From: an uncultured Archangium sp.
GTDB lineage: Bacteria; Myxococcota; Myxococcia; Myxococcales; Myxococcaceae
Direction: 5' to 3'
NCBI GenBank assembly: GCA_903905455.1
Contig: CAIVGN010000098.1
Location: forward strand, 1 to 64,000
Length of the DNA: 64,000 nt
A model generated the notes under the pieces. That model searched no databases and had not been told where the DNA came from. It saw only the letters and a program-made list of their open reading frames with translations. Below, piece by piece: positions 7,768 to 39,448 of the stretch (the first letter of the stretch is position 1; each line of letters begins with the position of its first letter). A program made the position numbers and the translations under genes.

Positions 7768-10302
7768 TTAGAGGACGATCTCCAGCTCCTCGCCGCCGCT
7801 CGCCAGGCGCACCGTCGCCGGCTCGCCCTGCGCGTCACCGACCTCGAGCACCAGGGTGACGACCAGCCCGGGGGACATCGAGCCGTTCGCGGTGGTCATC
7901 GCCAGCACCACCGACACGGTGAGCACCGTGCCATCGCTCAGCTCGAGCTGCGCCTCGGCGCCCGGCTCCCACTGCAGCTGCGAGGTGACGTCGATCTCGA
8001 TGATCAGCCGCTTGCCCTGGCGCCGGACCTTGCCGTTGAGGCGACGGGTCGGCGCCTGGTAGACCTTCTCACTCGGGGCCCTGGCGCCGCCGGTGGGCAA
8101 CATCGGCTTGAGCAGGCGCCGGGCCAGGTCGACCAGCCCTTCCTTCTTCTTCTGCGGCTCGGGCGCGGGGGGCGCCGCGGGCCGGGACGGGGCTCCACGC
8201 GGGGGCGGCGGGGCATCGGCGCTGAACCCCTTGAGCTCGGAGCTGCTGACCTCCTCGCGCAGGGGCTCGCTCTCCCAGTCAGCGTCATCGAGGGCCGGCG
8301 GAGGCACGGCGGCGAAGGAGCCCGTCGCCGACTCCCGGCGCTCCCGCTCGGGGGCCGGCGAGACCATCTTCGCCATCGAGCGACGCATGGCCGGGGCCGG
8401 CGCCGACTGCGACACCGAGGGTGCCTGGCCTCCTGCGCCCATGGTGGCTCCGCTGGGGGCCCGCAAGCCCACGCCCTCGGCCGACAGCCCGTAGGCGAGC
8501 GCCTGGGGCATGGTCTCGGTGCGGCGAGGGGCGCGCGGGTCGACCGTCTGCTTGGTGCTCACCGCCACCCACGAGGTGAGCCGGGTGGAGATCTGGAAGT
8601 CGATGCCCAGGCGCTCGATGCGCGGGTCGGCGTCGGCCTTGCTCTCGCCGGTGGCCACCCCGAGCTCGAGGTCTTCCACCAGCTCGCGGCCGAAGAGCGT
8701 CGCCACCGCGGCGCTGCCCTGGCCGTGCCCAGTCGGGGGCACAGTGAGGCGGTCTTCGACCTCTCCGTCAGCCCCGCGGGAACGGATGATGACCTCGCCT
8801 CCCTCGGGCCGCAGCTTGAGCGACACCAGGGCCGGCGCACCGCCGTAGAGGTCGGGCACCCGCTTCGGGGCCACGCCGAGCACCGCGCTGCCGCTGATCT
8901 CAACGTCGGTCAGCAGCGGCGCGTTGGTGCGCGCCAGCAGGCGGGCGACGAAGGGCTCCGCGTCTTCCCCCAGGCCGATGACCAACTCCACCCCGCGACC
9001 GGCGCGCGCCGCCGGCAGGGTGAGGCTGCGGTTGACGCCGCTGCCCACGCCCACGGTGTGCACCCGCGAGCCCTTCGGGAGCTTGCGGGCGATGGCCTCC
9101 AGCACCTCCGACTCGAAGCCGATGAGCCCGTCGGTGATGAGGATCACCTGGCGCTGGCTCTCGTCGCGCAGCGTGGCGAGCGCCTCGAGAATGCCGGTGC
9201 GCATCTCGGTGCCGCCGCTGGCCCGAAGCCGCGAGAGCCACGACTGCGCGTCCCGGCGGTTCGCCTCGGTGGCCGGCACCGCCCCGCGCTTCCACCGGCG
9301 CGGCGAGTTCGAAAACTCGATGAGCTCGAGCTGGTCACCGTCGGTCAGCGAGTCGACCAGCGCCGAGGTCACCCGGCGGGCCTGGTCGAGCGGCGACCCC
9401 GACATGGAGCCCGAGGTGTCGAGCAGCACGATGAGATCGCGCGCCAGCGGCTTCATCTTCGCCTCGACCGACGGCGGCACCAGCGTCAGCAGCCCGTAGG
9501 CCGCCTCGGAGCTGGGGCCCCCGGCCGGCCGGCTCACGTCGAGCTCGGTGCCGACCTCGAGGCTGGCGACGCGCCATCGAACCACCACGTCGCGGTCGAG
9601 CGAGACGCCGCGCTCGTCGCCGAAGGTCACGTCGGTGCGCCCTTCACCGCGCCCGGAGTGCAGCGGGTGGCTGGGGCTCTCGGGCCGGGCCTGGGCCGGC
9701 AGCCGATCGCGAATGGCCAGCGACAGCGCCAGCTTCACCGGCAGCTCGCCGTCCGCCACGTCGACGGAGACGCGCGCCTGGTCGGCCACGCGGCCCGGCG
9801 CGCCGAGGTACCGGGGCGCGACCACCGTGGGGAAGCGCCACTCCCAGGCGCCGTCGGGCAGCCAGGTGAGCTTCTGGTCCACCTGCACCTCGCAGATCAC
9901 CTGCGTGCGCGGCGGCACGTTGCCGACCTCCTGGGTGAAGAGGCTCGAGCGCTCCTGGTCGAGGATCGCCGCGGTGCGCCCCTCGAGGATCGCGTCTTCG
10001 AAGCGCTGCCGCGCGCGGGCCTTCGCGTCGACCTGGCCCACCACGCGCTCGTCACCGATGCGAAAGGCGAAGCCGCTCACCGCCCCGTCGGCCGGCAAGG
10101 GCAGCGAGTAGGTCACGCGCAGCGGCTCGTCGTGCGGGTTGCGGAAGGTCTGCTCGAGCGTGATGCGGACCAGCCCCCCCTTCGCGTCGGCGGCGAGCGA
10201 GGCGCCGATCAACGGCAGCGCGCGCCCATCGACGGTGACGAGGCGACCACCAGCGGTCTCAGAGGGGCTCGGCGAGGAAGCAGGGCGAGGAGCGAACGAC
10301 AT
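7768..10302 (-). CDS. VIT and von Willebrand factor A domain protein
   Basis: An 844-residue protein with a VIT domain at about residues 20-150 and a VWA domain at about 285-455. The complete metal-ion-dependent adhesion site is visible as DTSGSMSGS at residues 295-303. After the VWA domain come beta-rich segments, a Pro/Ala-rich linker (about 640-740) and a C-terminal beta domain. Known: VIT/VWA proteins bind partners through the metal site, and the bacterial roles are mostly undefined. There is no clear signal peptide. I chose the ATG at 10302 because AAAGGA lies 8 bases before it, whereas the ATG at 10311 overlaps that ribosome binding site. A palindrome lies just upstream. Confidence 0.88.
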   Translation of the reverse strand: MSFAPRPASSPSPSETAGGRLVTVDGRALPLIGASLAADAKGGLVRITLEQTFRNPHDEPLRVTYSLPLPADGAVSGFAFRIGDERVVGQVDAKARARQRFEDAILEGRTAAILDQERSSLFTQEVGNVPPRTQVICEVQVDQKLTWLPDGAWEWRFPTVVAPRYLGAPGRVADQARVSVDVADGELPVKLALSLAIRDRLPAQARPESPSHPLHSGRGEGRTDVTFGDERGVSLDRDVVVRWRVASLEVGTELDVSRPAGGPSSEAAYGLLTLVPPSVEAKMKPLARDLIVLLDTSGSMSGSPLDQARRVTSALVDSLTDGDQLELIEFSNSPRRWKRGAVPATEANRRDAQSWLSRLRASGGTEMRTGILEALATLRDESQRQVILITDGLIGFESEVLEAIARKLPKGSRVHTVGVGSGVNRSLTLPAARAGRGVELVIGLGEDAEPFVARLLARTNAPLLTDVEISGSAVLGVAPKRVPDLYGGAPALVSLKLRPEGGEVIIRSRGADGEVEDRLTVPPTGHGQGSAAVATLFGRELVEDLELGVATGESKADADPRIERLGIDFQISTRLTSWVAVSTKQTVDPRAPRRTETMPQALAYGLSAEGVGLRAPSGATMGAGGQAPSVSQSAPAPAMRRSMAKMVSPAPERERRESATGSFAAVPPPALDDADWESEPLREEVSSSELKGFSADAPPPPRGAPSRPAAPPAPEPQKKKEGLVDLARRLLKPMLPTGGARAPSEKVYQAPTRRLNGKVRRQGKRLIIEIDVTSQLQWEPGAEAQLELSDGTVLTVSVVLAMTTANGSMSPGLVVTLVLEVGDAQGEPATVRLASGGEELEIVL

Positions 10303-10411: not shown

Positions 10412-11608
10412 CTACTTCCGGAGCAGGGAAATTCCCGGCGGCCCGAGGAGCACCAGGTCCCCGGTGGCGCGGCTGGCCAGGGCCACGGCCGTGCTGGGCA
10501 CTTCGACCACGTCCCACTTTCCACCTTCGAGCTGCCGGTAGAGGTGCGCGCTCGAGAGCGCGAACCGCTCGGCCATGCCCGGCACCTCGGCGATGGCGCG
10601 CACCGGCTCGGGGAGGAGGGTGGTGCGCCAGCCGGGGCTGGGCCCCTGCACCAGGATGCCGATGCTGGAGCCGGTGCCCATGCGCTCGCCGCCCAGCCAG
10701 ATGCCGTCGGCGCCCGTCTGCGCGAAGAAGAACCGGCCCTGGGCCGGGAGCGGCACGCTCAGCCACTGGCCGGCGCTGAAGTGCGCGAGCACGGCGTCGC
10801 CCGTCGCCCACAGCTCGCCGTCCTGCCGGGCGAGCGAGAGCACCGGGGTGCGCAGGTCGAGCACGGGCTCGAAGCCTCCGAGGCGTTGATCGAAGAGCAT
10901 GCCCGTCGCCGACCCGAGGTGCAGCGCGCCGTGCGCGTCGACGGCCACGGCGGTGAAGTCGGCGCCCTCGACGGTGGTGAGCATGAAGCGCTCGCCCGAC
11001 CACTCGAGCACCGTCCCGTCGTCACCGACCACCACCGGAGCGCCCGTGGCGCTGAAGGCCACCCCGCGCAGCGTCGAGACCACGCCCGAAGAGACGTTCA
11101 CCCAGGTGCGACCGACGAGGTGCAGCACCGTGCCGCGTTCGCCCACGGCCCAGGCGCTGCCATCGGGCGCCGCACCCAGCGCCAGCAACCGCGCGCTGGT
11201 CATGGTGGGCACGACTTCCCAGCTCACCGGCACCGGGGCCACGGGGTCGACGCCCACGACCAACGTCGTGGCGTGCAGATCGGACCACTCGACCGAGAGG
11301 CGGATCGGCCCGAGGCACGCCGCTTCTTCGGTGGGCGAACACGCATAGGTCGCGGTGACGAAGCCATCCGCGAGGACTTCCTGGTCACCGCCGATGAAAT
11401 GACCGACGGGAGCGGTGAGGTGAACCACACCCCCGCCCGGAGATTCACCCGCCTCCCACGCCCGGATCTTCACGACCACCCGCTCCACCCGACCATCGAA
11501 GCTCGCCCGATCAGGGGAGATGCTGAGGGCAGGTTCGACGACGGGGGCCCCACAAGCGCTGACGATCACTGCGAGCGCGCTGCTGGCGACAAGCCTTGCT
11601 GCATTCAT
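10412..11608 (-). CDS. Lipoprotein with beta-propeller-like repeats
   Basis: A 398-residue protein with a lipoprotein signal, residues 1-19, ending VSAC with the lipidated Cys19, so it is probably anchored to a membrane. After a beta-sandwich-like N-terminal part (about 25-120), the chain has repeated segments such as GSAWAVGERGTVLHL, GAPVVVGDDGTVLEW and GELWATGDAVLAHF. These resemble blades of a YCF48-like beta propeller. The function is unknown; a scaffold or sensor role is inference. The start is fixed by AGGAGG six bases before the ATG at 11608; a GTG directly ahead of it is less likely. Confidence 0.8.
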   Translation of the reverse strand: MNAARLVASSALAVIVSACGAPVVEPALSISPDRASFDGRVERVVVKIRAWEAGESPGGGVVHLTAPVGHFIGGDQEVLADGFVTATYACSPTEEAACLGPIRLSVEWSDLHATTLVVGVDPVAPVPVSWEVVPTMTSARLLALGAAPDGSAWAVGERGTVLHLVGRTWVNVSSGVVSTLRGVAFSATGAPVVVGDDGTVLEWSGERFMLTTVEGADFTAVAVDAHGALHLGSATGMLFDQRLGGFEPVLDLRTPVLSLARQDGELWATGDAVLAHFSAGQWLSVPLPAQGRFFFAQTGADGIWLGGERMGTGSSIGILVQGPSPGWRTTLLPEPVRAIAEVPGMAERFALSSAHLYRQLEGGKWDVVEVPSTAVALASRATGDLVLLGPPGISLLRK

Positions 11609-24130: not shown

Positions 24131-25684
24131 ATGACCACCTCCGCCCGTCGCCGTGCTCGTGGCCAGGTCCTCGTGATGGCCTGCCTGACCTTCCTCCTCC
24201 TCGCGCTGACGCTGATGGCGAGCTTCTCGGTGTCTCACGCGGTGCATGAGCGCATCCGCATCCAGGCGGCGTCCGACGCGCAGGCGTTCTCCATCGCCAC
24301 GCTCGAGGCCCGCGGGTTCAACACCATCGCGTACATGAACCGGGCGATCGCCGGGGGCATCGTGGCCGAGCTGGGGCTGCACGCGTGGCGCGCCATCGCC
24401 TCGCGCGACGTGGCCATGTACCAGGCCGGGTTCTTCTCGTTCCTGATGGTCGCGGCCTCGGAGTTCGCCCAGTGCCCGAAGTTCAAGATCCAGCACTGCA
24501 TTCACGGCATTCAGGCCCTGCGCATCGCCTTCAAATACAACCAGAAGCACCGGCAGGCGAAGAACGACCTCGAGAGCAAGGACCAGAAGTGGCACGACGC
24601 GGTGAAGGGCTTCAGCGACATGATCAAGAAGATCTATGACGACGAGAAGTCGATCCTCGACAAGGTCAAGGGCGAGATCAACGGCGGCGTCCTCCTGCAG
24701 CGCATCAAGTTCACCAGCGCCCCCAACGCCTCGATGAAGAACTTCCAGAAGTACAACCTCATCGGCCTGGCCTGCGCGGTCGAGGGCTCGAGCTTCGACG
24801 ACAAGTGCGAGGCCCTGGGCTGGAAGCGCACCGTGCCCGTGGCCTCGGCCAGCGATCGCACCCACATCATGGAATCGGCGGCGAAGGCCGCCCGCAACCC
24901 GATGGAGATCGGCCGCCGGGGTTCGCGCTCGCTTTCAGCCAGCGGCTACCGCTCCTCCGCCGCCAGTGACGACTCGGTGCTCGCAGCCATCCTGGGCATT
25001 CCTCCTTCGCTCATTGCGGCACCGATCGACGGCGACATCTCGTCGAACCCCCAGAACATGATGGATGTGCAGAGCGAGGGCAGCTTCAAGGAGATCTCGA
25101 TCCTGAATGAGAAGCTCGACGTCAGCGACAACAAGATCTCGGGCAGTGAGCCCATCGCCATCGTGGTCGTCACCTGGAAGGACGGCTACGGCGGCTGGAT
25201 CACCTCGGGCAGCGTCCCCAGTTCGGCCAACGACTACAAGGGCGTGCCCTGCGACGGCAGCGGTGGGTGCTTCATCAACTTCCGCATGGGCAAGGCCAGC
25301 AGTGGCGCCGACGACGACACTGACTACGGCCAGCCGTCGACGTACGGCGGCATGTCCCAGGACCTCCGCTTGATCAAGGGCGGGGGCAAGGGCGCCTGGG
25401 AGATCGAGGGCAAGGGGGAGGTGCAGATGGTCGGCACCACGAGCAAGTTCAAATTCGTTCCCGGCGCGTCGGCTTACGCGGTGTCGAAGGGCAAGACCTA
25501 CTTCCACCAGCTGGGGAACAACGGCTGGCAAGTGGCCCCCAACATGTTCGACCCCTTCTGGCGCGCGAAGCTGCAGCCGTTCCTCCGCAAGGAGTTGTCG
25601 GCTGCACTCGGTCAAGCCGGCGACGGGCCCGGCCAGCAGGTCATTGATGCGTCGAGCACGTCGGTGGAAGGGGTGACCAAGTGA
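24131..25684 (+). CDS. TadG-like long pseudopilin (Tad-like module 1, second gene)
   Basis: A 517-residue protein with a basic head, an N-terminal membrane helix (about residues 13-35, VLVMACLTFLLLALTLMASF), then SDAQAFSIATLEARGFNTIAYMNRAI. That arrangement matches the putative Flp-assembly Tad domain, in which a helix after the membrane segment carries conserved Ala and Asn residues. The remaining roughly 400 residues are polar, Gly/Ser-rich and probably periplasmic. Paralogous to the gene at 43275. It overlaps the next gene by four bases (GTGA type, ending TGA at 25684). Confidence 0.82.
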   Translation: MTTSARRRARGQVLVMACLTFLLLALTLMASFSVSHAVHERIRIQAASDAQAFSIATLEARGFNTIAYMNRAIAGGIVAELGLHAWRAIASRDVAMYQAGFFSFLMVAASEFAQCPKFKIQHCIHGIQALRIAFKYNQKHRQAKNDLESKDQKWHDAVKGFSDMIKKIYDDEKSILDKVKGEINGGVLLQRIKFTSAPNASMKNFQKYNLIGLACAVEGSSFDDKCEALGWKRTVPVASASDRTHIMESAAKAARNPMEIGRRGSRSLSASGYRSSAASDDSVLAAILGIPPSLIAAPIDGDISSNPQNMMDVQSEGSFKEISILNEKLDVSDNKISGSEPIAIVVVTWKDGYGGWITSGSVPSSANDYKGVPCDGSGGCFINFRMGKASSGADDDTDYGQPSTYGGMSQDLRLIKGGGKGAWEIEGKGEVQMVGTTSKFKFVPGASAYAVSKGKTYFHQLGNNGWQVAPNMFDPFWRAKLQPFLRKELSAALGQAGDGPGQQVIDASSTSVEGVTK

Positions 25685-26832
25685 AGACCCGTCGCAACGC
25701 CCGTGGCGCCGCTGCCGTCGAGATGGCCATCACCATGGTGGTGCTCATCCCCCTCATCTTCTTCGCGCTGTTCCTCGAAGACTTCGTCTACTACCGGCTC
25801 AATGGCCAGGAGCCACTCATCGCGGCGGCCTGGGACCACGTCACGCCCGACTACATGACGACGGCTCCCGACGTCGGCGGCATGAACCGACTCCAGTACT
25901 GCGATCACACCGCAGCCTACGACAGCTACCAGCAGCAGTTCGACTGCGATGGACCGAGTGGTGGTGCGACCGCGGGCGGCGGCTACAGCGTCACCGGTGC
26001 AGGTGGCAAGCTCGGCCACCACCACGCCACCGGCGCGCACCAGTGCTGGCTGGGCGGCGGTCAGCAAATCGAATGCTCCATCGACAAGAGCGGCGGCATG
26101 GAGATCGTGGCCGGCGACGCCATGACCGGCTTCTTCGCTTCGGATTGGAACCGCGGCGGCATCGCCAACTGCAGTGCCCAATTGAACGTCTTCAACTGGA
26201 TCATCCCCCAGGGCATCAGCCAGGGCGGTGGGTGGCTGTGGAGCAAGAAGAAGCTCACCAACCACACCCAGTACGGAAAGAAGGGCGGCGGCAGCCGCGC
26301 GGGCGAGAAGGGCTGGTCGGACGAATACTCCCTCGCCGATGCGCACACGGACGGCGAGGGGATCCAGGCCTCCGACTACCAGGAGACCCACGGCGAGGAC
26401 GACACGGGCAGTTGGCTGCTCTCGATGGAGAAGCACGCGATGCTCGTCGACCCCTGGGCGCTGACCCACATCGATCCGGTCAAGCCGCTGACCGATGCGC
26501 TGCTCGCCAACGCGAGTCCCCCCGGCTCGGTGGCGCCCGGCATCGACTTCCCGTTCAACCCGCTGCTGGCCCGCACCGGCTACTACTACACCAAGTACGG
26601 CAAGACCCCGGCCGCCGACGCCATGCAGTGGAACTCCGACATGAGCGACTTCCTGAGCTCCGGCTCCCGCAAGGATGGCACCGGCGACAACCTCAAGTCG
26701 GTGCCGGTGATGTGGGTGCCCGAGAAGACGCGGCCCGGGTACTCGGGTGGCTACGCGTCGGGCTACCAAGACTCCCGCGCGCAGGCGGCCAACCGTCCCA
26801 ACGAGTTCCCCAAGGTGTGGGGGCCGCAGTAG
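25681..26832 (+). CDS. TadE-like pseudopilin (Tad-like module 1, third gene)
   Basis: A 383-residue protein starting MKTRRNARGAAAVEMAI with a hydrophobic helix at about 14-36, the TadE pattern. The mature part is Gly/Tyr/Trp-rich with several Cys (CDHTAAY, FDCDGPSG, ANCSAQ), suggesting periplasmic disulfides. Paralogous in position and N-terminus to the gene at 44888, though the mature part differs strongly. It begins with GTG at 25681, overlapping the previous stop. Confidence 0.82.
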   Translation: MKTRRNARGAAAVEMAITMVVLIPLIFFALFLEDFVYYRLNGQEPLIAAAWDHVTPDYMTTAPDVGGMNRLQYCDHTAAYDSYQQQFDCDGPSGGATAGGGYSVTGAGGKLGHHHATGAHQCWLGGGQQIECSIDKSGGMEIVAGDAMTGFFASDWNRGGIANCSAQLNVFNWIIPQGISQGGGWLWSKKKLTNHTQYGKKGGGSRAGEKGWSDEYSLADAHTDGEGIQASDYQETHGEDDTGSWLLSMEKHAMLVDPWALTHIDPVKPLTDALLANASPPGSVAPGIDFPFNPLLARTGYYYTKYGKTPAADAMQWNSDMSDFLSSGSRKDGTGDNLKSVPVMWVPEKTRPGYSGGYASGYQDSRAQAANRPNEFPKVWGPQ

Positions 26833-26840
26833 GCACCGCC

Positions 26841-27701
26841 GTGGCCACTCCCTTGAAACGTGGTTGGTCGTTCGCGCGCATCTTGCTCGTGACCGCCGTC
26901 GTAGGGACGGTGGCCGGGACGCTGCTGGGCACCTTCGTGGCGCCGCCGGAAGAGCCGGAGGTCGTCGCGGAGCGGGAGGTGGCGCGCCTGATGCCCCGCC
27001 AGGCCCCGGCCGAGTCGGGCGACGAGATGGCTCCGGACCCCGCTTCGTTGTCAGGCATCCCCCCATACCCGGGCGTGTACCCCCGGCGACTCGCGCGGCA
27101 GGCCACGGCCCAGGGAGGCCCGATGTCGATCTCGTGGTTCACCACCGAGGCCCCCACGGGCGACGTGCTCGATTTCTACGAGCGTGCCTTCCGGGCCGAC
27201 GGCCGGCGCCCCTTCAAGCAGCGCCGGGGGCCCGACATGGGCTACGTGGCGTGGCTCGACGCGCACAACGACGGGGGCCTCGGGGCGGGCGTGCTGCACA
27301 TGGTCTCGGCGATGAAGCAGTTCAGCCAGACGGTGGTACTGATCTCGGCCTCCCGTCCCGACATGGCGATGAACTCGTCGCCCAAGCTCCCCGAGGGGCT
27401 GGAGCTGCCTCCCTCGAGCACCGAGCCCCAGGTGGTCGAGATGGGTGAGTCGGCGCTCGCCAACCGCATCGTCTATGCGCGGTCGATGAATGTCAGCCCT
27501 GCTGAAGTGGTCGAGTTCTTCGTGCGACAATTCAAGGAGCGCGGGTTCGAGGTCGCCGATCAGAACGAGACCCCGCTCCAGGCCGGGGTGACCGGCAAGA
27601 AGGGCGCGACCGCGGTGGTCGTCGTCGCCAGGGCAGAAGGCAATCACTCGTCGGTCGTGATCACCTACGATCGACAAATGCAGGAAGGTGTCTCTCCATG
27701 A
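26841..27701 (+). CDS. Single-pass exported protein of Tad-like module 1 (unknown family)
   Basis: A 286-residue protein from a GTG at 26841. It has a basic head, one membrane segment (about residues 10-31, ARILLVTAVVGTVAGTLLGTF) and a periplasmic region containing two alpha/beta repeats. Each repeat carries a signature like PTGDVLDFYERAFRADG or SPAEVVEFFVRQFKERG. The second resembles EAEVIDFYRAVLPSGGW in the gene at 45805, so the two are paralogues closing each module. The function is unknown. The stop overlaps the ATG of the Cys-rich gene. Confidence 0.78.
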   Translation: MATPLKRGWSFARILLVTAVVGTVAGTLLGTFVAPPEEPEVVAEREVARLMPRQAPAESGDEMAPDPASLSGIPPYPGVYPRRLARQATAQGGPMSISWFTTEAPTGDVLDFYERAFRADGRRPFKQRRGPDMGYVAWLDAHNDGGLGAGVLHMVSAMKQFSQTVVLISASRPDMAMNSSPKLPEGLELPPSSTEPQVVEMGESALANRIVYARSMNVSPAEVVEFFVRQFKERGFEVADQNETPLQAGVTGKKGATAVVVVARAEGNHSSVVITYDRQMQEGVSP

Positions 27702-27919
27702 AATGGCTCTTGTTGGCGTTGATGTTCGTCCCCGGTGCGGCTTTCGCGGGCGGGGCGTGTGAAGCGACCTGCGCGGACACGGTCAAGCAGTGCAAGGACA
27801 TGTGCAAGACGGCGTTGAAGAAGGACTCAGCGGACAAGATTTCGTTCTGCCAGGACAAGTGCAAGGAGTTCGAAAATGAGTGCAAGAAAGACTGCGAAGC
27901 CGACAAGAAGAGCCGCTGA
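27698..27919 (+). CDS. Small secreted tandem twin-CX3C protein
   Basis: A 73-residue protein. Residues 1-18 are a clear signal peptide (MKWLLLALMFVPGAAFAG). The mature part contains eight cysteines in a strict pattern, CX3C-X6-CX3C, then 14 residues, then CX3C-X6-CX3C. Known: twin CX3C or CX9C proteins fold as helical hairpins stapled by disulfides. Here two such units are in tandem, and the sequence is Lys/Asp/Glu-rich. I do not recognise a named bacterial family. Its ATG overlaps the stop of the upstream module gene, and its 3' end overlaps the Flp-like gene by 44 bases. Confidence 0.8.
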   Translation: MKWLLLALMFVPGAAFAGGACEATCADTVKQCKDMCKTALKKDSADKISFCQDKCKEFENECKKDCEADKKSR

Positions 27920-28088
27920 GCTCCTCCGCGGCCCGCGTGGGCAGGCGATGGTCGAATACAGCGTCGTCACCCACTTCCTGCTGCTCGGTGGCGGCCTCGG
28001 CCTCATGCCGGTGATGGGCAAGCTCTTCGAGGCCTTCACCAAGTTCTACGAGAGCGTGTTCTTCGTGCTCAGCTCCGGCGCGATCTGA
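27876..28088 (+). CDS. Flp-like / TadE-like mini-pilin
   Basis: A 70-residue protein with a basic head (residues 1-21), then GQAMVEYSVVTHFLLLGG, which has the Glu at the +5-like position and the Tyr typical of type IVb Flp pilins. A hydrophobic helix and a short C-terminal tail end it. Flp pilins are the main subunits of Tad pili; this one is closest to that type but could be a minor pilin. The start lies 44 bases inside the twin-CX3C gene, in another frame, an unusual overlap. It is the last gene of module 1. Confidence 0.75.
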   Translation: MSARKTAKPTRRAAELLRGPRGQAMVEYSVVTHFLLLGGGLGLMPVMGKLFEAFTKFYESVFFVLSSGAI

Positions 28089-28863: not shown

Positions 28864-30543
28864 ATGCTCCAGGTCCTGGTTGCTGCGCTCCTCGCCGTCG
28901 CTGACGGTGGGGTGGGTGAAGAGGTCGCGACCGAAGTTCCGGTGCCCGTGGAGGTCGACGCCGGGCTGCCGGGAGACGCGCCGCTGGTGCTGCCGCCGCC
29001 GGTGATGGTCGCAGCGGAGCCCGAGCGCCGTGACGGCAAGCCGGACTTCGTCAAGGGCGAGCTCTCGGTGTACCTGGGCAGCGATCGGCTCACGGTGAAG
29101 AACACGCGCATCGGCGTGTCGGCCGGCCTCGAGCGCTTCGAGGACGCCTACTACGCGCTGATCGAGCCCCTGGTCGACCTGCGCTTCCTCGACGGCAAGC
29201 TGGGCATCGGCGTGGGCGTGCCGCTGCGCCTCGAGTTGGTGAACTTCGCGACCAACCCCGCGACCGGCTCGCCGTACCTCATCGATCGCATCGGCCGCTT
29301 CCGCGTCGAGGACTACGACTCGGTTCACGACTTCGGGCGCATCCTCAAATACGTGACCTACGGGCGGAAGGAGGACCAGATCTACGTGAGCGCCGGCCAG
29401 CGCTACGCGTCGTCGGTCGGCCACGGCGCCATCACCCGCCGCTACTCGCCGAGCATCGACATCGACTACCCGCGGGCCTCGGCCCAGGTCGACATGTACA
29501 ACGACTACGCGGGCTTCGAGTTGATGACCAACGACCTGCTGGAATGGAACCAGCTCTCGGGCATCGCCTTCCTCAAGCCGCTGTCGTTCTTCAAGCCGAA
29601 GAACCTGCTGGCGAAGACCTTCTCGCTCGGCGTCTCTGGTGGCCTCGACTGGAAGGCCCCGTGGACCCTGTCCGACGTGCCCGGCGAGCGCGTGGTCGCC
29701 GCCACCAACCGGCTCGCGGTCACCTCGCTGCGCCCGGCTCGCCTGGTGGGCGTCGACGCCGAGGTCAAGGTGTTCAAGAACGACAGCGTCGACCTCAAGC
29801 CCTACGTCGACTACTCGATGCTCCTCGACGGCGACTCGGGCTTCACCGCGGGGTTCCTCGGGCGCTTCAACGTGGGCGACAAGACCGTGCACGCGTTCCG
29901 GGTGGTGGCCGAGGCGCGCTTCCTCGGGAACCGCTACGCGCCCAGCTACTTCGACACGTTCTACGAGATCGACCGCATGGCATACCTGAACACCGACTTC
30001 CGCGCGGCCGGGTCGCCGACGGCCCTCTACATTCCCAAGCACCAGTACGTGCTCGAGCGGGGCCTGGGGCAGCGCTTCGGGTACTACCTCGAGGCCAGCT
30101 GGGGCATCCGCGACGCCATCGCGCTCACCTTCGCCTTCGAGGGGACGAGCAACGCGCTGGCCAAGAACTTCGTGGCCCACCTCGAGGTGCCGGTGCTCAG
30201 CTTCTTCCAGCTCTTCGGCAGCTACTACCTGCGCGGCGTCGAGTCGTTCTCGGAGCTGACCACGGTGGACCCCAACCAGGGCGTCATCGGCCTGTTCGGC
30301 CTCAAGTCCGTCGCGTTCGCCGGCGCCCGGTTGCGGGTGCTGCCCTTCCTGTTCATCAACGCGCGCGTCTACAAGACCTTCCGGGTGAACAAGCCGCTCG
30401 AGCGCTACGACAACCAGTTCGGCTTCGCGGTGGATCTCGAGATTGGCTACGAGTTCCGCAAGACGCAGCCCGCGCCGCCCCCGAAGGACGACCTGCCCAC
30501 GCCGGCTCAGGGCGCCGCGTTGTCCGGCAGCGCCATGCGCTGA
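28864..30543 (+). CDS. Probable outer-membrane beta-barrel protein
   Basis: A 559-residue protein with an N-terminal hydrophobic leader (about 1-14) and an acidic, Pro-rich stretch (15-60). The rest is dominated by alternating hydrophobic and aromatic strands (for example AYYALIEPLVDLRF, FGYYLEASWGIRDAIALTFAF, FLFINARVYKTFRV), typical of porin-like barrels. The very C-terminus is a Pro-rich tail rather than the usual terminal aromatic. It probably lies in the outer membrane; transport or scaffold roles are unknown. Its last 37 bases overlap the convergent transporter gene. Confidence 0.75.
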   Translation: MLQVLVAALLAVADGGVGEEVATEVPVPVEVDAGLPGDAPLVLPPPVMVAAEPERRDGKPDFVKGELSVYLGSDRLTVKNTRIGVSAGLERFEDAYYALIEPLVDLRFLDGKLGIGVGVPLRLELVNFATNPATGSPYLIDRIGRFRVEDYDSVHDFGRILKYVTYGRKEDQIYVSAGQRYASSVGHGAITRRYSPSIDIDYPRASAQVDMYNDYAGFELMTNDLLEWNQLSGIAFLKPLSFFKPKNLLAKTFSLGVSGGLDWKAPWTLSDVPGERVVAATNRLAVTSLRPARLVGVDAEVKVFKNDSVDLKPYVDYSMLLDGDSGFTAGFLGRFNVGDKTVHAFRVVAEARFLGNRYAPSYFDTFYEIDRMAYLNTDFRAAGSPTALYIPKHQYVLERGLGQRFGYYLEASWGIRDAIALTFAFEGTSNALAKNFVAHLEVPVLSFFQLFGSYYLRGVESFSELTTVDPNQGVIGLFGLKSVAFAGARLRVLPFLFINARVYKTFRVNKPLERYDNQFGFAVDLEIGYEFRKTQPAPPPKDDLPTPAQGAALSGSAMR

Positions 30544-31379
30544 GGCTCGGCCGCGGCCCACGCGCCGGCGGCCACCACCAGCAACACCCCCAGCGCGCTC
30601 CACAGCCCGAAGGCTTCGTGCAGCACCAGCACGCCCAGCAGCGCGGCCGTCAGCGGCTCGAGGTAGGTGAAGACGCCGACCAGCTGCGCACCGATGAGGC
30701 GCAGGCTGACGTTGAAGAGGGCCGCGCCCAGCAGTCCGTTGACCAGGCCCGCGAAGAGGATGATCGCCAGGCCACCGTCGACCGCGACGGGCAGGGCGGC
30801 GCCGCGGAAGAGCACCAGCAACACCGCCGCCGAGAGCACCGAGTGCAGGGAGGTGACGGCGAGCGGGCCGAAGGTGCGGCCGGCGCGACGGCTCCCCAGC
30901 ACCACCAGGGCGTAGAAGATCGCGCTCCCGCCGCCGAGCAGCGCGGTGGTGAGCCACCCGCTGGCGTGGCTGCCGTGGCCCAGCACCAGCCCCAGGCCCG
31001 TCAGCACCAGGGGGCTCGCGAGCAGCGCCCGGCGAGAGCGTGGTTCGTCGAGCACCAGCGGGGCGAGCACCGCGACGAGCGTGGGCGCGAGGTAGTGCGA
31101 GAGCACCGCGACCACCACCGGGCCCCGCTCCAGCGCCGAGAAGTAGAGGACCACGTTGGCCGCGTCGGCGAGGCCCACGAGCAGCAGGGCCGCCACCGCG
31201 CCGCGATCGGCGAAGTCGCTGCGGCGGAAGACGAAGGGCGCCGGGAGCGACATCACCAGGAGGGTGATGAAGCCGATGGCCAGCCCGGAGATCGCCCCGC
31301 CGCGCGTGTAGAGCGGCCAGGTGCCCCAGAGGGTCGCGGCGAGCGCGATGATGCCGATGCCTGTTGCGCGTCTCGTCAC
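30507..31379 (-). CDS. EamA/DMT-family transporter
   Basis: A 290-residue membrane protein with ten predicted membrane segments in two repeated halves (the EamA domain twice). Motifs typical of drug/metabolite transporters, such as LEPLTAALLGVLVLHEA near the C-terminus, are present. Proteins of this family export amino acids, sugars or drugs; the substrate cannot be told from sequence. The start MTRRATG is basic, in line with the positive-inside rule. It is divergent from the YcaO gene with about 53 bases between them, and could serve that locus as an exporter (inference). Confidence 0.88.
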   Translation of the reverse strand: MTRRATGIGIIALAATLWGTWPLYTRGGAISGLAIGFITLLVMSLPAPFVFRRSDFADRGAVAALLLVGLADAANVVLYFSALERGPVVVAVLSHYLAPTLVAVLAPLVLDEPRSRRALLASPLVLTGLGLVLGHGSHASGWLTTALLGGGSAIFYALVVLGSRRAGRTFGPLAVTSLHSVLSAAVLLVLFRGAALPVAVDGGLAIILFAGLVNGLLGAALFNVSLRLIGAQLVGVFTYLEPLTAALLGVLVLHEAFGLWSALGVLLVVAAGAWAAAEPQRMALPDNAAP

Positions 31380-31432: not shown

Positions 31433-32422
31433 GTGGCGAACCCGGCGAGCCCTCCTTCGAAGCGACTCGCCTCGGCCTTCGGCGTCACCCGGCTCGCGCG
31501 GCTGACCGGGCTCGATCGCCTGGGCTTCGAGGTGGTGGGCGCCGTGCGGCCCTTCGGTCACGTGCTGCAGGTCTCGCAGGGCAAGGGGCGCACGTTGGCC
31601 GCCGCCCAGTGGAGCGCCCTGGGGGAGGCCATCGAATTGTCGGCCGCGGAGTCGCCGGACCTGGGCTCGTTGCGCTTCGGCCCCGCGCCCCAGGGCGCGC
31701 TGTGGGACGTCGACGGGCTCTCGGTGGCCTGGGCCCCCGGGCGCACCCTCGAGGGAAATCGCCCCTGCTGGGTGCCGGCCGAGACCGTCTACTGCCCGCC
31801 CGCGGGGACCTGCTGGTTGGGCCCCTCCATCGCCACCTGGCGCTCGAACGGCCTGGGTGCGCACCCCACCTCGAAGCGCGCGGCCGTGGAGCACGCGGTG
31901 TTGGAGTTGGTGGAGCGCGACGCGCTGGCCCGCACGCTGCCCCGGGGGTGGACGGCGCCGGCGGCGCGGGCGCGGCTGGTGGAACTGCCTCCCTTCGCGC
32001 GCGCGCTGCAGGACCAGGGCATCGCGGCCTTCGCGTTCGACCTCACGCCGCCGGGCGCGGCGCTGCCCCTGGCCGGGGCGCTGCTCTTCGACCTCGAGAG
32101 CGACGTGGTGCCGCTGACCGCGGGCTACGCGTGCCGCCGCTCGTGGGACGACGCCGTGGAGTCCGCGTTGCTGGAGGCGGCCCAGTCGCGGCTGACCGAG
32201 ATCCACGGGGCGCGTGAAGACGTGCTCACCGGGGAACGCGAGGCGGGCCTCACGCTGCTGCGCTCCCTGCAGGGCGCGACCCCCGCCCGGGCGCGGCCGC
32301 GTCGCGAGCGCCGGGCGCTGGGCGCGGTCATCGACGCGGAGATCGCGGTGGTGACGCTCCGCGAGGCCCCCTTCGTGGTGAAGGCCGTGAGCCCCACGAT
32401 GCGCGTCTCGGAGCTCCTGTGA
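31433..32422 (+). CDS. YcaO-family ATP-dependent peptide backbone-activating enzyme
   Basis: YcaO enzymes use ATP to activate peptide amides, giving azolines, thioamides or amidines. This 329-residue protein has the three ATP/Mg motifs in order: ALGEAIELSAAE (62-73), AVEHAVLELVERDA (141-154) and ALLEAAQSRLTEIHGARED (235-253). It lacks the C-terminal PxPxP tail of azoline-forming enzymes and ends RVSELL. TfuA follows with a GTGA overlap, the pairing known from peptide thioamidation. A GTG at 31433 is chosen; an ATG at 31364 in frame would overlap the divergent transporter gene. No E1-like or dehydrogenase gene is present. Confidence 0.88.
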   Translation: MANPASPPSKRLASAFGVTRLARLTGLDRLGFEVVGAVRPFGHVLQVSQGKGRTLAAAQWSALGEAIELSAAESPDLGSLRFGPAPQGALWDVDGLSVAWAPGRTLEGNRPCWVPAETVYCPPAGTCWLGPSIATWRSNGLGAHPTSKRAAVEHAVLELVERDALARTLPRGWTAPAARARLVELPPFARALQDQGIAAFAFDLTPPGAALPLAGALLFDLESDVVPLTAGYACRRSWDDAVESALLEAAQSRLTEIHGAREDVLTGEREAGLTLLRSLQGATPARARPRRERRALGAVIDAEIAVVTLREAPFVVKAVSPTMRVSELL

Positions 32423-33381
32423 TCATCGTCTTCCTCGGCCCCAGCCTTCCGCGCGCAGAGGCCTGTCGACTCCTGACTGCCGACTACCGGCCGCCGGCCC
32501 GGCAGGGAGACGTCTTCAAGGCCATCGAGGCGGCGCCCGAGGCGATCGTCTTGATCGACGGGGTCTTCGAGGCGGCGCCGTCGGTCTGGCACCACGAGCT
32601 CATCGCCGCGCAGACCGCCGGCATTCCCGTCTACGGCGCGTGCAGCATGGGCGCGCTGCGGGCCGCGGAGTTGCCCGGGGTGGTCACGCCGCTGGGGGAG
32701 ATCGCCGGGCGCTTCGTGCGGGGGACGTGGAACGACGACGCGGCCGTGGCGCTGCTGCACGCCGACGAGGCCAACGGCTTCCGGGCGCTCTCGGTGCCGT
32801 GGGTCAACGTCTGGGCGACGGCGCGCGCGGCGCAGCAGGCCGGGGTGTTGAGCGCGCGTCGGGCGCAGCGGCTGTGTGACGTCGCCGAGTCGCTCTTCTA
32901 CCAGTCGCGCACCTGGCGCCGCCTGCTGGACGCGCTGGCGTGGCCCGCGGGGGACCGGGCGCGGTTGGAGCTGTTCCTGCGTGACGGCACGGTGGACCTC
33001 AAGGCCGCCGATGCCCGGCTGTGTCTCGCGGCCGTGGCCAGGGCGAAGCCCGCGCGTCGCGCGCCGCGCGCCAGCCGGCTGTCCTCGTTCGTGCGCCGCA
33101 CCCGAATGCCCAGCGGGGACGACGTGGGGGCCGACCCCGGCGTGCGGACGTTGCTCTTCGCAGAGTTTGCGCGTCACGCGGGGCTGACGCCGGACCCGGA
33201 GCGGGTGGCGGCGTGGCGCGATCAGCTCACCGTCGCGGCCGCCGACGTGCGCGAGGGCTGGGCCGAGGCGCTGGCGCTCGAGGAGCTGGTCCTCTCGGCG
33301 CCCGAGCGCTTCGTGCCCGACGGCCCTTCCCGTCGCGAGGGTGCGGCGTTGAGTCGCGCACTGGCACCACGCCGGCGTTAG
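32419..33381 (+). CDS. TfuA-like protein (YcaO partner)
   Basis: A 320-residue protein starting with GTG at 32419, overlapping the YcaO stop. The TfuA domain covers about residues 1-130, with IVFLGPSLPRAEA, YRPPARQGDVFKAI, LIDGVF, PSVWHHEL and ACSMGALRAAEL. The C-terminal half is Arg-rich and helical. Known: TfuA is needed with YcaO for trifolitoxin production and for thioamide formation in methyl-CoM reductase, where it is thought to deliver sulfur. That makes thioamidation the likely chemistry here; the target is unknown. The next gene starts 9 bases later. Confidence 0.85.
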   Translation: MIIVFLGPSLPRAEACRLLTADYRPPARQGDVFKAIEAAPEAIVLIDGVFEAAPSVWHHELIAAQTAGIPVYGACSMGALRAAELPGVVTPLGEIAGRFVRGTWNDDAAVALLHADEANGFRALSVPWVNVWATARAAQQAGVLSARRAQRLCDVAESLFYQSRTWRRLLDALAWPAGDRARLELFLRDGTVDLKAADARLCLAAVARAKPARRAPRASRLSSFVRRTRMPSGDDVGADPGVRTLLFAEFARHAGLTPDPERVAAWRDQLTVAAADVREGWAEALALEELVLSAPERFVPDGPSRREGAALSRALAPRRR

Positions 33382-33390
33382 GCTCGTGCG

Positions 33391-34320
33391 GTGCGGATCG
33401 TCAGCTACAACGTCCGTTACTTCGGGCACGGCCTCAAGGGCCTCGCGAGCACCGCGGGGGCCAAGGAGCGCATCGCGCAGGCGCTGAGTTCGCTCGACCC
33501 GCTCCCCGAGTTGATCGCGCTGCAGGAGGTGGAGACGAAGTCGATCCGCTCCGGGGTGGCGCACCGTGGAGGCCACCCGGCCGAGACGCAGCTCGAGGCC
33601 TTCCTGCGGCACCTCACCCAGGACTTCCGGCGTCGTGGGCTCGTGATGCCCTACCGCGCCTGGTACTTCCCCGCGCACGTGTACCAGGTGGGCTCGGTGA
33701 AGCTCTACACCACGGGCCTGGCGATGCTGGTCAACAGCCAGAAGCTCGAGGTGATCGCCGACAACGGGCACAAGCCGCACGCCATCACCCACCACCGCAC
33801 CGAGACGCTCAAGCAGGTGAAGCAGACGCGCATCGCCGCGCACCTGCAGCTCGAGAACCTCGAGGGGCGCCGCTTTCACCTCTTCAACACCCACCTCTCG
33901 TTGCCCACCCCCTGGGCGAAGGAGTTCTGGAGCCAGCCGGGAAAGATGGGCTTCGGCACCAACCAGCTTGCCGAGGCGCGGGCCGTGGCGGAGTTCGCCG
34001 CCGCCACCTCGAAGTCAGACCCCTACCTCGTGGTGGGCGACTTCAACACCGGGCCGGCGACGCCCGTGTACCAGTACCTCACGCGCGAGGCGGGGCTGCG
34101 CGGGGCGCAGGAGTTGCTCAAGCAGATCGATCTCACGAAGCCCGGGGCCTTCGCCACTGCGGGCTTCATGCACCTGCGCATGCACCTCGATCACGTCTTC
34201 GCCGGCAACGGCCTGGGCTTCGTCGACCTCAACGACACGCACACCTTCGGAGACCCCGCGAGCCGCTTCACCGGCCTGTCGGATCACGTGCCGCTGATCG
34301 CCGGCTTCAACCTCGACTGA
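33391..34320 (+). CDS. Endonuclease/exonuclease/phosphatase-family protein
   Basis: A 309-residue protein with EEP fold motifs: IVSYNVRYFG at the N-terminus, the metal-binding Glu in LIALQEVE, FNTHLSL, the LVVGDFNT loop with catalytic Asp and Asn, and a C-terminal SDHVPL with the catalytic His. The family cuts phosphodiesters in DNA, lipids or nucleotides. There is no signal peptide. It begins with GTG at 33391, close behind TfuA, and could be part of that transcript. The last 37 bases overlap the convergent metallophosphoesterase gene. Confidence 0.88.
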   Translation: MRIVSYNVRYFGHGLKGLASTAGAKERIAQALSSLDPLPELIALQEVETKSIRSGVAHRGGHPAETQLEAFLRHLTQDFRRRGLVMPYRAWYFPAHVYQVGSVKLYTTGLAMLVNSQKLEVIADNGHKPHAITHHRTETLKQVKQTRIAAHLQLENLEGRRFHLFNTHLSLPTPWAKEFWSQPGKMGFGTNQLAEARAVAEFAAATSKSDPYLVVGDFNTGPATPVYQYLTREAGLRGAQELLKQIDLTKPGAFATAGFMHLRMHLDHVFAGNGLGFVDLNDTHTFGDPASRFTGLSDHVPLIAGFNLD

Positions 34321-37159: not shown

Positions 37160-37250
37160 GTGCGGCTCCCTGGTGGTGGGTGGTCAGCGGGGCGCATGTT
37201 ACGGGCGCGTTCCAGCCGCGCAACCACCGATTGCCGCCCCGAAAACACCA

Positions 37251-37312: not shown

Positions 37313-39448
<2,136 letters not shown>

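Follow-up and report, generated by a model that had tools for sequence, protein, structure and literature searches.

Results

Gene organization of the locus

The window (the whole stretch of DNA analysed, 64,000 nucleotides, from an 8.6-Mb Myxococcales genome designated G000) contains adjacent genes for a YcaO-domain enzyme and a TfuA protein, a pairing that is far beyond chance. The pair and its immediate neighbours are arranged as follows.

30507 to 31379, minus strand: EamA/DMT transporter gene, divergent from the pair (Pfam EamA, 99 bits)
31433 to 32422, plus strand: YcaO-domain enzyme, 329 residues, GTG start (Pfam PF02624, fold match, invariant motifs)
32419 to 32422, plus strand: GTGA stop/start overlap of the YcaO and TfuA genes (sequence; kept in orthologues)
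32419 to 33381, plus strand: TfuA, 320 residues, with a core (about residues 1-207) and a helical C-terminal extension (about 210-320) (Pfam, match to 6xp8)
33391 to 34320, plus strand: gene of the endonuclease/exonuclease/phosphatase (EEP) family, 9 nt after TfuA (PF03372, 51 bits)

The YcaO protein, the only one encoded in G000, is placed in the PF02624 superfamily by its profile score (111 bits, E 8e-32, against a cut-off of 25.7), its motifs and its fold. As the first-pass annotation of this DNA had read it, all three ATP-binding motifs are complete (SALGEAIE, TSKRAAVEHAVLELVERDA and EAAQSRLTEIHGARED) and the C-terminus, which ends in VSELL, is without a PxPxP tail. That annotation had named the loss of active-site residues in close homologues as an observation that would tell against its reading; instead the key motif residues are invariant in 16 diverse aligned orthologues and nearly so across 53. 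By analogy with characterized relatives, the enzyme is predicted to carry out ATP-dependent activation of backbone amides. When a profile of the orthologous YcaOs (group A, described below) is compared with the PDB, the M. jannaschii YcaO is matched first (106 bits) and the M. kandleri YcaO second (51 bits), followed by TruD, E. coli YcaO (4q84, a distant match at 31 bits) and LynD. The predicted structure of the window YcaO (pLDDT 86) points to the same enzymes, with the thioamidating YcaOs of M. jannaschii and M. kandleri as the best folds (TM 0.65-0.75), so that the nearest solved structures are those of the McrA-thioamidating enzymes (6pe3, 6peu and 6ci7).

The TfuA protein is assigned to its family by profile (PF07812, 104 bits against a cut-off of 30; NCBIfam NF033432, 157.3 bits) and by the fold of its core. 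Residues 3-213 match Methanosarcina acetivorans TfuA (6xp8) with 186 bits, and the structural model (pLDDT 92) aligns with 6xp8 in foldseek at E 5e-14, with a TMt of 0.87 and a core rmsd of 1.8 Å. Residues 210-320 have no solved-structure match outside the core and no Pfam model. Helical C-terminal extensions of this kind in bacterial TfuAs are distantly similar to those of RiPP-type TfuAs, and the idea that the extension is special to the clade was rejected on this ground. Because the nearest structures to the two proteins are McrA-modifying YcaOs and M. acetivorans TfuA, thioamidation is the best call for the chemistry, and the two genes very probably encode a working thioamidation pair.

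The GTGA overlap at 32419-32422, which had been described earlier as coupling the two genes, recurs in kind across the orthologous loci, where the YcaO gene ends in ATGA, GTGA or TTGA in 50 of 52 cases. Judged from the sequence, translation of TfuA is predicted to be coupled to that of YcaO.

Absence of a local precursor

The genes around the pair are closely packed, with successive intergenic gaps of 53, -4, 9 and -4 nt; the first gap larger than these comes at 37160. Since the gaps measure at most 53 nt, a precursor gene would not fit beside the pair, and none is present near it, in agreement with the first-pass annotation. Further out, 116 small ORFs between 24 and 42 kb were compared with ten loci of the window's subclade. 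The only two conserved non-overlapping small ORFs in that interval lie at 40-41 kb, so that the comparison with relatives, proposed earlier as a check, reveals no short conserved frames near the pair; both ORFs were set aside, since some 7 kb or more, including other genes, separates them from it. The earlier proposal that the pair thioamidates something encoded elsewhere, or else a short precursor close by, is therefore borne out in its first part, while the second is effectively excluded by the gaps and the ORF search. The substrate is very probably encoded away from the locus.

A secreted-looking, Cys-rich small protein of 73 residues is encoded 3.5 kb upstream of the pair (27698-27919, plus strand). 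It was rejected as a precursor, as it is present in one related locus (L035), weakly matched in two others (L037 and L039) and missing from the closest relatives in the same genus (L032 and L033). The surrounding interval (24131-28088, plus strand) is a run of coupled genes with sub-threshold similarity to TadE/TadG; it also encodes a small pilin-like protein and may be an accessory locus of a Tad/Flp pilus.

A RiPP-type YcaO-TfuA locus in one of the relatives (L088, genome G019) shows what a linked precursor would look like. At L088:15185-15352 lies a precursor-like ORF of 55 residues whose leader-like part ends in VSGGA, and on its sequence the locus is a candidate thioamidated RiPP cluster. 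This ORF serves as a positive control, by eye, for the detection of precursors at a YcaO-TfuA locus.

Neighbours change between lineages while the pair is kept

The divergent DMT transporter and the downstream EEP-like gene are both found where they had been noted before, and the EEP gene is probably co-transcribed with the pair. The transporter adjoins the pair in the window and in seven loci of its subclade, the EEP gene in 12 loci of that subclade, and neither lies beside the pair elsewhere, the Myxococcus, Corallococcus and Anaeromyxobacter loci included. The suggestion that the transporter acts as an exporter is not upheld by this one-subclade distribution, and the EEP gene was rejected as a functional partner for the same reason. 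The other flanking genes were mostly named by reading their sequences. In Archangium and relatives they are a Myxococcus-paralogue-like gene, a DNA-methyltransferase-like gene, a dicarboxylate symporter and an OPT transporter. Corallococcus-like loci have kinases in this place, family f7 has an M3-like peptidase, and genomes of the Anaeromyxobacter type have various genes. Flanks swap between lineages and the pair stays. No protease, tailoring or export gene is conserved beside it across the lineages compared, and the E1-like or dehydrogenase partner that the first-pass annotation had considered damaging to its reading is found neither at the locus (E1-like/ocin-ThiF or dehydrogenase) nor among the constant neighbours in relatives. 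Elongation factor G is encoded a few kb from the pair (37313-39448, minus strand), a position common to seven loci of the subclade.

Distribution, descent and clean loss

A TfuA is present in 66 of the 99 relatives searched. The loci fetched from these genomes contain two kinds of YcaO-TfuA pair. In group A, which includes the window, both proteins are about 40-70% identical to those of the window, the gene order is unchanged and the overlap recurs in nearly every locus; group B pairs are about 30-36% identical, and large genomes carry one to several of them. Profile matches of at least 250 bits, counted from the search listing, are found in 105 of 195 genomes of the phylum, one per genome, and all of these genomes belong to the order Myxococcales, the best score outside the order being 199 bits. 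Named records of group A include Myxococcus xanthus, Corallococcus, Pyxidicoccus, Archangium, Hyalangium, Citreicoccus and Anaeromyxobacter. A Myxococcus-type locus also appears in a record titled Comamonas sp. KCTC 72670 (BNCN01000014.1, L114), a title that looks wrong. The pair is thus order-wide, being retained by most myxobacteria of the order, and not peculiar to G000.

In the tree, group A is monophyletic, with an SH-aLRT support of 100, and sits on a long stem. Families mostly cohere within it, and there is a basal split within family f1. This topology fits mostly vertical descent accompanied by losses, and the tree, a quick one, may leave room for a few transfers. Close pairs give pairwise dN/dS values of 0.13-0.38 for YcaO and TfuA alike, which is purifying selection of moderate strength. 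The window therefore holds an intact, orthologous, single-copy pair of the order Myxococcales.

Group A is missing from four genomes of genus g23 that are complete or nearly so. When three of these, complete genomes of the Myxococcus group (G050, G152 and G154), are compared with one that has the pair (G027), both flanks align up to base 7998 of the compared stretch and resume at 10477-10521, leaving ~190-240 nt where G027 has ~2.5 kb. The missing ~2.5-kb stretch is YcaO plus TfuA. That the two genes disappear together and take no neighbour with them speaks for a single functional unit to which no dedicated substrate is linked, and loss in several complete genomes indicates that the pair is dispensable.

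Comparison with characterized systems

The closest counterpart is found in methanogens, where a YcaO-TfuA pair thioamidates McrA and the genes occur in the order ycaO-tfuA with a stop/start overlap (PMC5589413). The methanogen/ANME systems, which modify a Gly of McrA (TIGR03266/NF033432; 6pe3, 6ci7, 6xp8), have the same two proteins, order and overlap as the window; they are likewise standalone, usually with the substrate encoded elsewhere, and vertically inherited, and they supply the best sequence and fold matches to the window pair. However, the window proteins score below both McrA equivalog cut-offs (82.8 against 365 bits for TIGR03266 and 157.3 against 235.2 bits for NF033432), and about 110 residues at the C-terminal end of the window TfuA form an extension that 6xp8 does not have. 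MCR alpha (PF02249) was not found in G000, while control searches were positive in two methanogens. Scores below the equivalog cut-offs together with the absence of MCR indicate that the substrate differs from McrA.

E. coli YcaO (EcYcaO), from the Pseudomonadota, thioamidates Met82 of uL16 and is likewise a standalone bacterial YcaO unlinked to its protein substrate (PMC13063428). In contrast to the window enzyme it needs no TfuA; it also differs by an additional TPR domain and strong acidity, and the two sequences match only distantly.

Discussion

The evidence is best accounted for by a standalone, mostly vertically kept pair of the Myxococcales that turns backbone amides of a trans-encoded substrate into thioamides. 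This substrate is most likely a protein of the cell, as in the cases of McrA and uL16, and we assign the reading a probability of roughly 0.6. Counted against it are the moderate dN/dS, which is faster than expected for an enzyme acting on a static ribosomal target, and the dispensability of the pair. Within this reading, a cellular protein is the somewhat better-favoured target than a distant precursor peptide.

The pair could instead thioamidate a short precursor encoded elsewhere in the genome, with the product exported as a signal or toxin. The majority of studied bacterial YcaO-TfuA pairs are RiPP enzymes, and thioamidated RiPP clusters (thioviridamide TvaH/TvaI, thiovarsolin and trifolitoxin) likewise have adjacent YcaO and TfuA genes (PMC8120280). 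In a 2021 survey of TfuA loci, Corallococcus is listed with the gene cluster families that dominate in proteobacteria, and its loci are treated as thioamidated RiPP clusters, in which glycosyltransferases and ABC transporters are neighbours (PMC8120280). The C-terminal extension of the window TfuA is distantly common to TfuAs of RiPP-like loci, and an accessory trait would suit both the moderate dN/dS and the patchy loss. Yet precursor, protease, tailoring enzyme and constant transporter are absent beside the pair in every lineage, whereas the RiPP-type locus of a relative does display its Gly-Gly precursor-like ORF, and the pair differs from typical RiPP clusters in being single copy and found across the order. 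A RiPP with a split locus is on balance unlikely. The surveyed Corallococcus loci may belong to group A or to group B, and for group A the RiPP label looks wrong.

If the target is a cellular protein, uL16 is an obvious candidate, modified at the equivalent of E. coli Met82 as by EcYcaO: it is the sole bacterial protein known as a target of YcaO thioamidation (PMC13063428), and G000 has no second YcaO that could serve it. The enzymes do not correspond, however. EcYcaO-type enzymes are very acidic (pI 4.4), whereas the group A median is pI 6.8 and the window YcaO, at 7.7, is neither highly acidic nor close to EcYcaO, which matches only distantly at 31 bits; nor is TfuA found near the suspected uL16-modifying YcaOs (PMC13063428). 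In G000 the Met82 position of uL16 (L200, G000:C106:43500-44050) is Gln, as it also is in G009 and G059, while most relatives have Met. One of these two other Gln-bearing genomes has the pair and one is without it, and uL16 shows no systematic difference between genomes with and without the pair. The side chain at this site may not matter, so the Gln is not decisive, but taken together these observations make uL16 a very improbable substrate. Formation of azolines or amidines, with TfuA incidental, deserves mention since several reactions are known for YcaO folds and the window model also matches LynD and TruD. It is hardly to be expected here, for the pair has no E1/ocin-ThiF or dehydrogenase partner and no PxPxP tail of the kind that marks azol(in)e-forming cyclodehydratases, its coupling to TfuA is conserved and the top matches are thioamidating YcaOs. 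A role in anti-phage defence was also considered, and no PADLOC model matched.

The preferred reading, thioamidation of a cellular protein, suggests a mechanism in which both the thioamide chemistry and the sulfur route are inferred, the chemistry from relatives of the pair. YcaO would bind ATP and Mg and then phosphorylate the oxygen of a backbone amide in the target, after which sulfide would take the place of the phosphorylated oxygen to give the thioamide. TfuA is described as the hydrolase in sulfide delivery, with thiocarboxylated ThiS-like carriers as the source (PMC13063428), and here it would free sulfide from a thiocarboxylated ThiS/MoaD-like carrier that E1 enzymes of the ThiF/MoeB type, belonging to primary metabolism, had charged; G000 has three matches to the ThiS/MoaD family and four to the ThiF family. 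The substrate would be encoded in trans, and would more likely be a protein of the cell than a RiPP precursor linked to the pair.

A literature search returned no description of biochemistry or function for the myxobacterial pair. The chemistry is already of a known kind; what is new is an order-wide clade read as a standalone system with an unlinked substrate. Genome-mining tools that label all YcaO-TfuA pairs as RiPP clusters probably misjudge group A. Protein backbone thioamides went unnoticed for decades, and to our knowledge only two protein substrates of YcaO enzymes, McrA and uL16, are known. We see an even chance that the Myxococcales possess a dedicated TfuA-assisted system of protein thioamidation with a cellular protein target of its own. 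If so, that target would join McrA and uL16 as a third protein substrate of YcaO enzymes, and the system would be the first of its kind in bacteria to use TfuA. An order-wide standalone pair, present also in the genetically tractable Myxococcus xanthus, points to such a further protein substrate.
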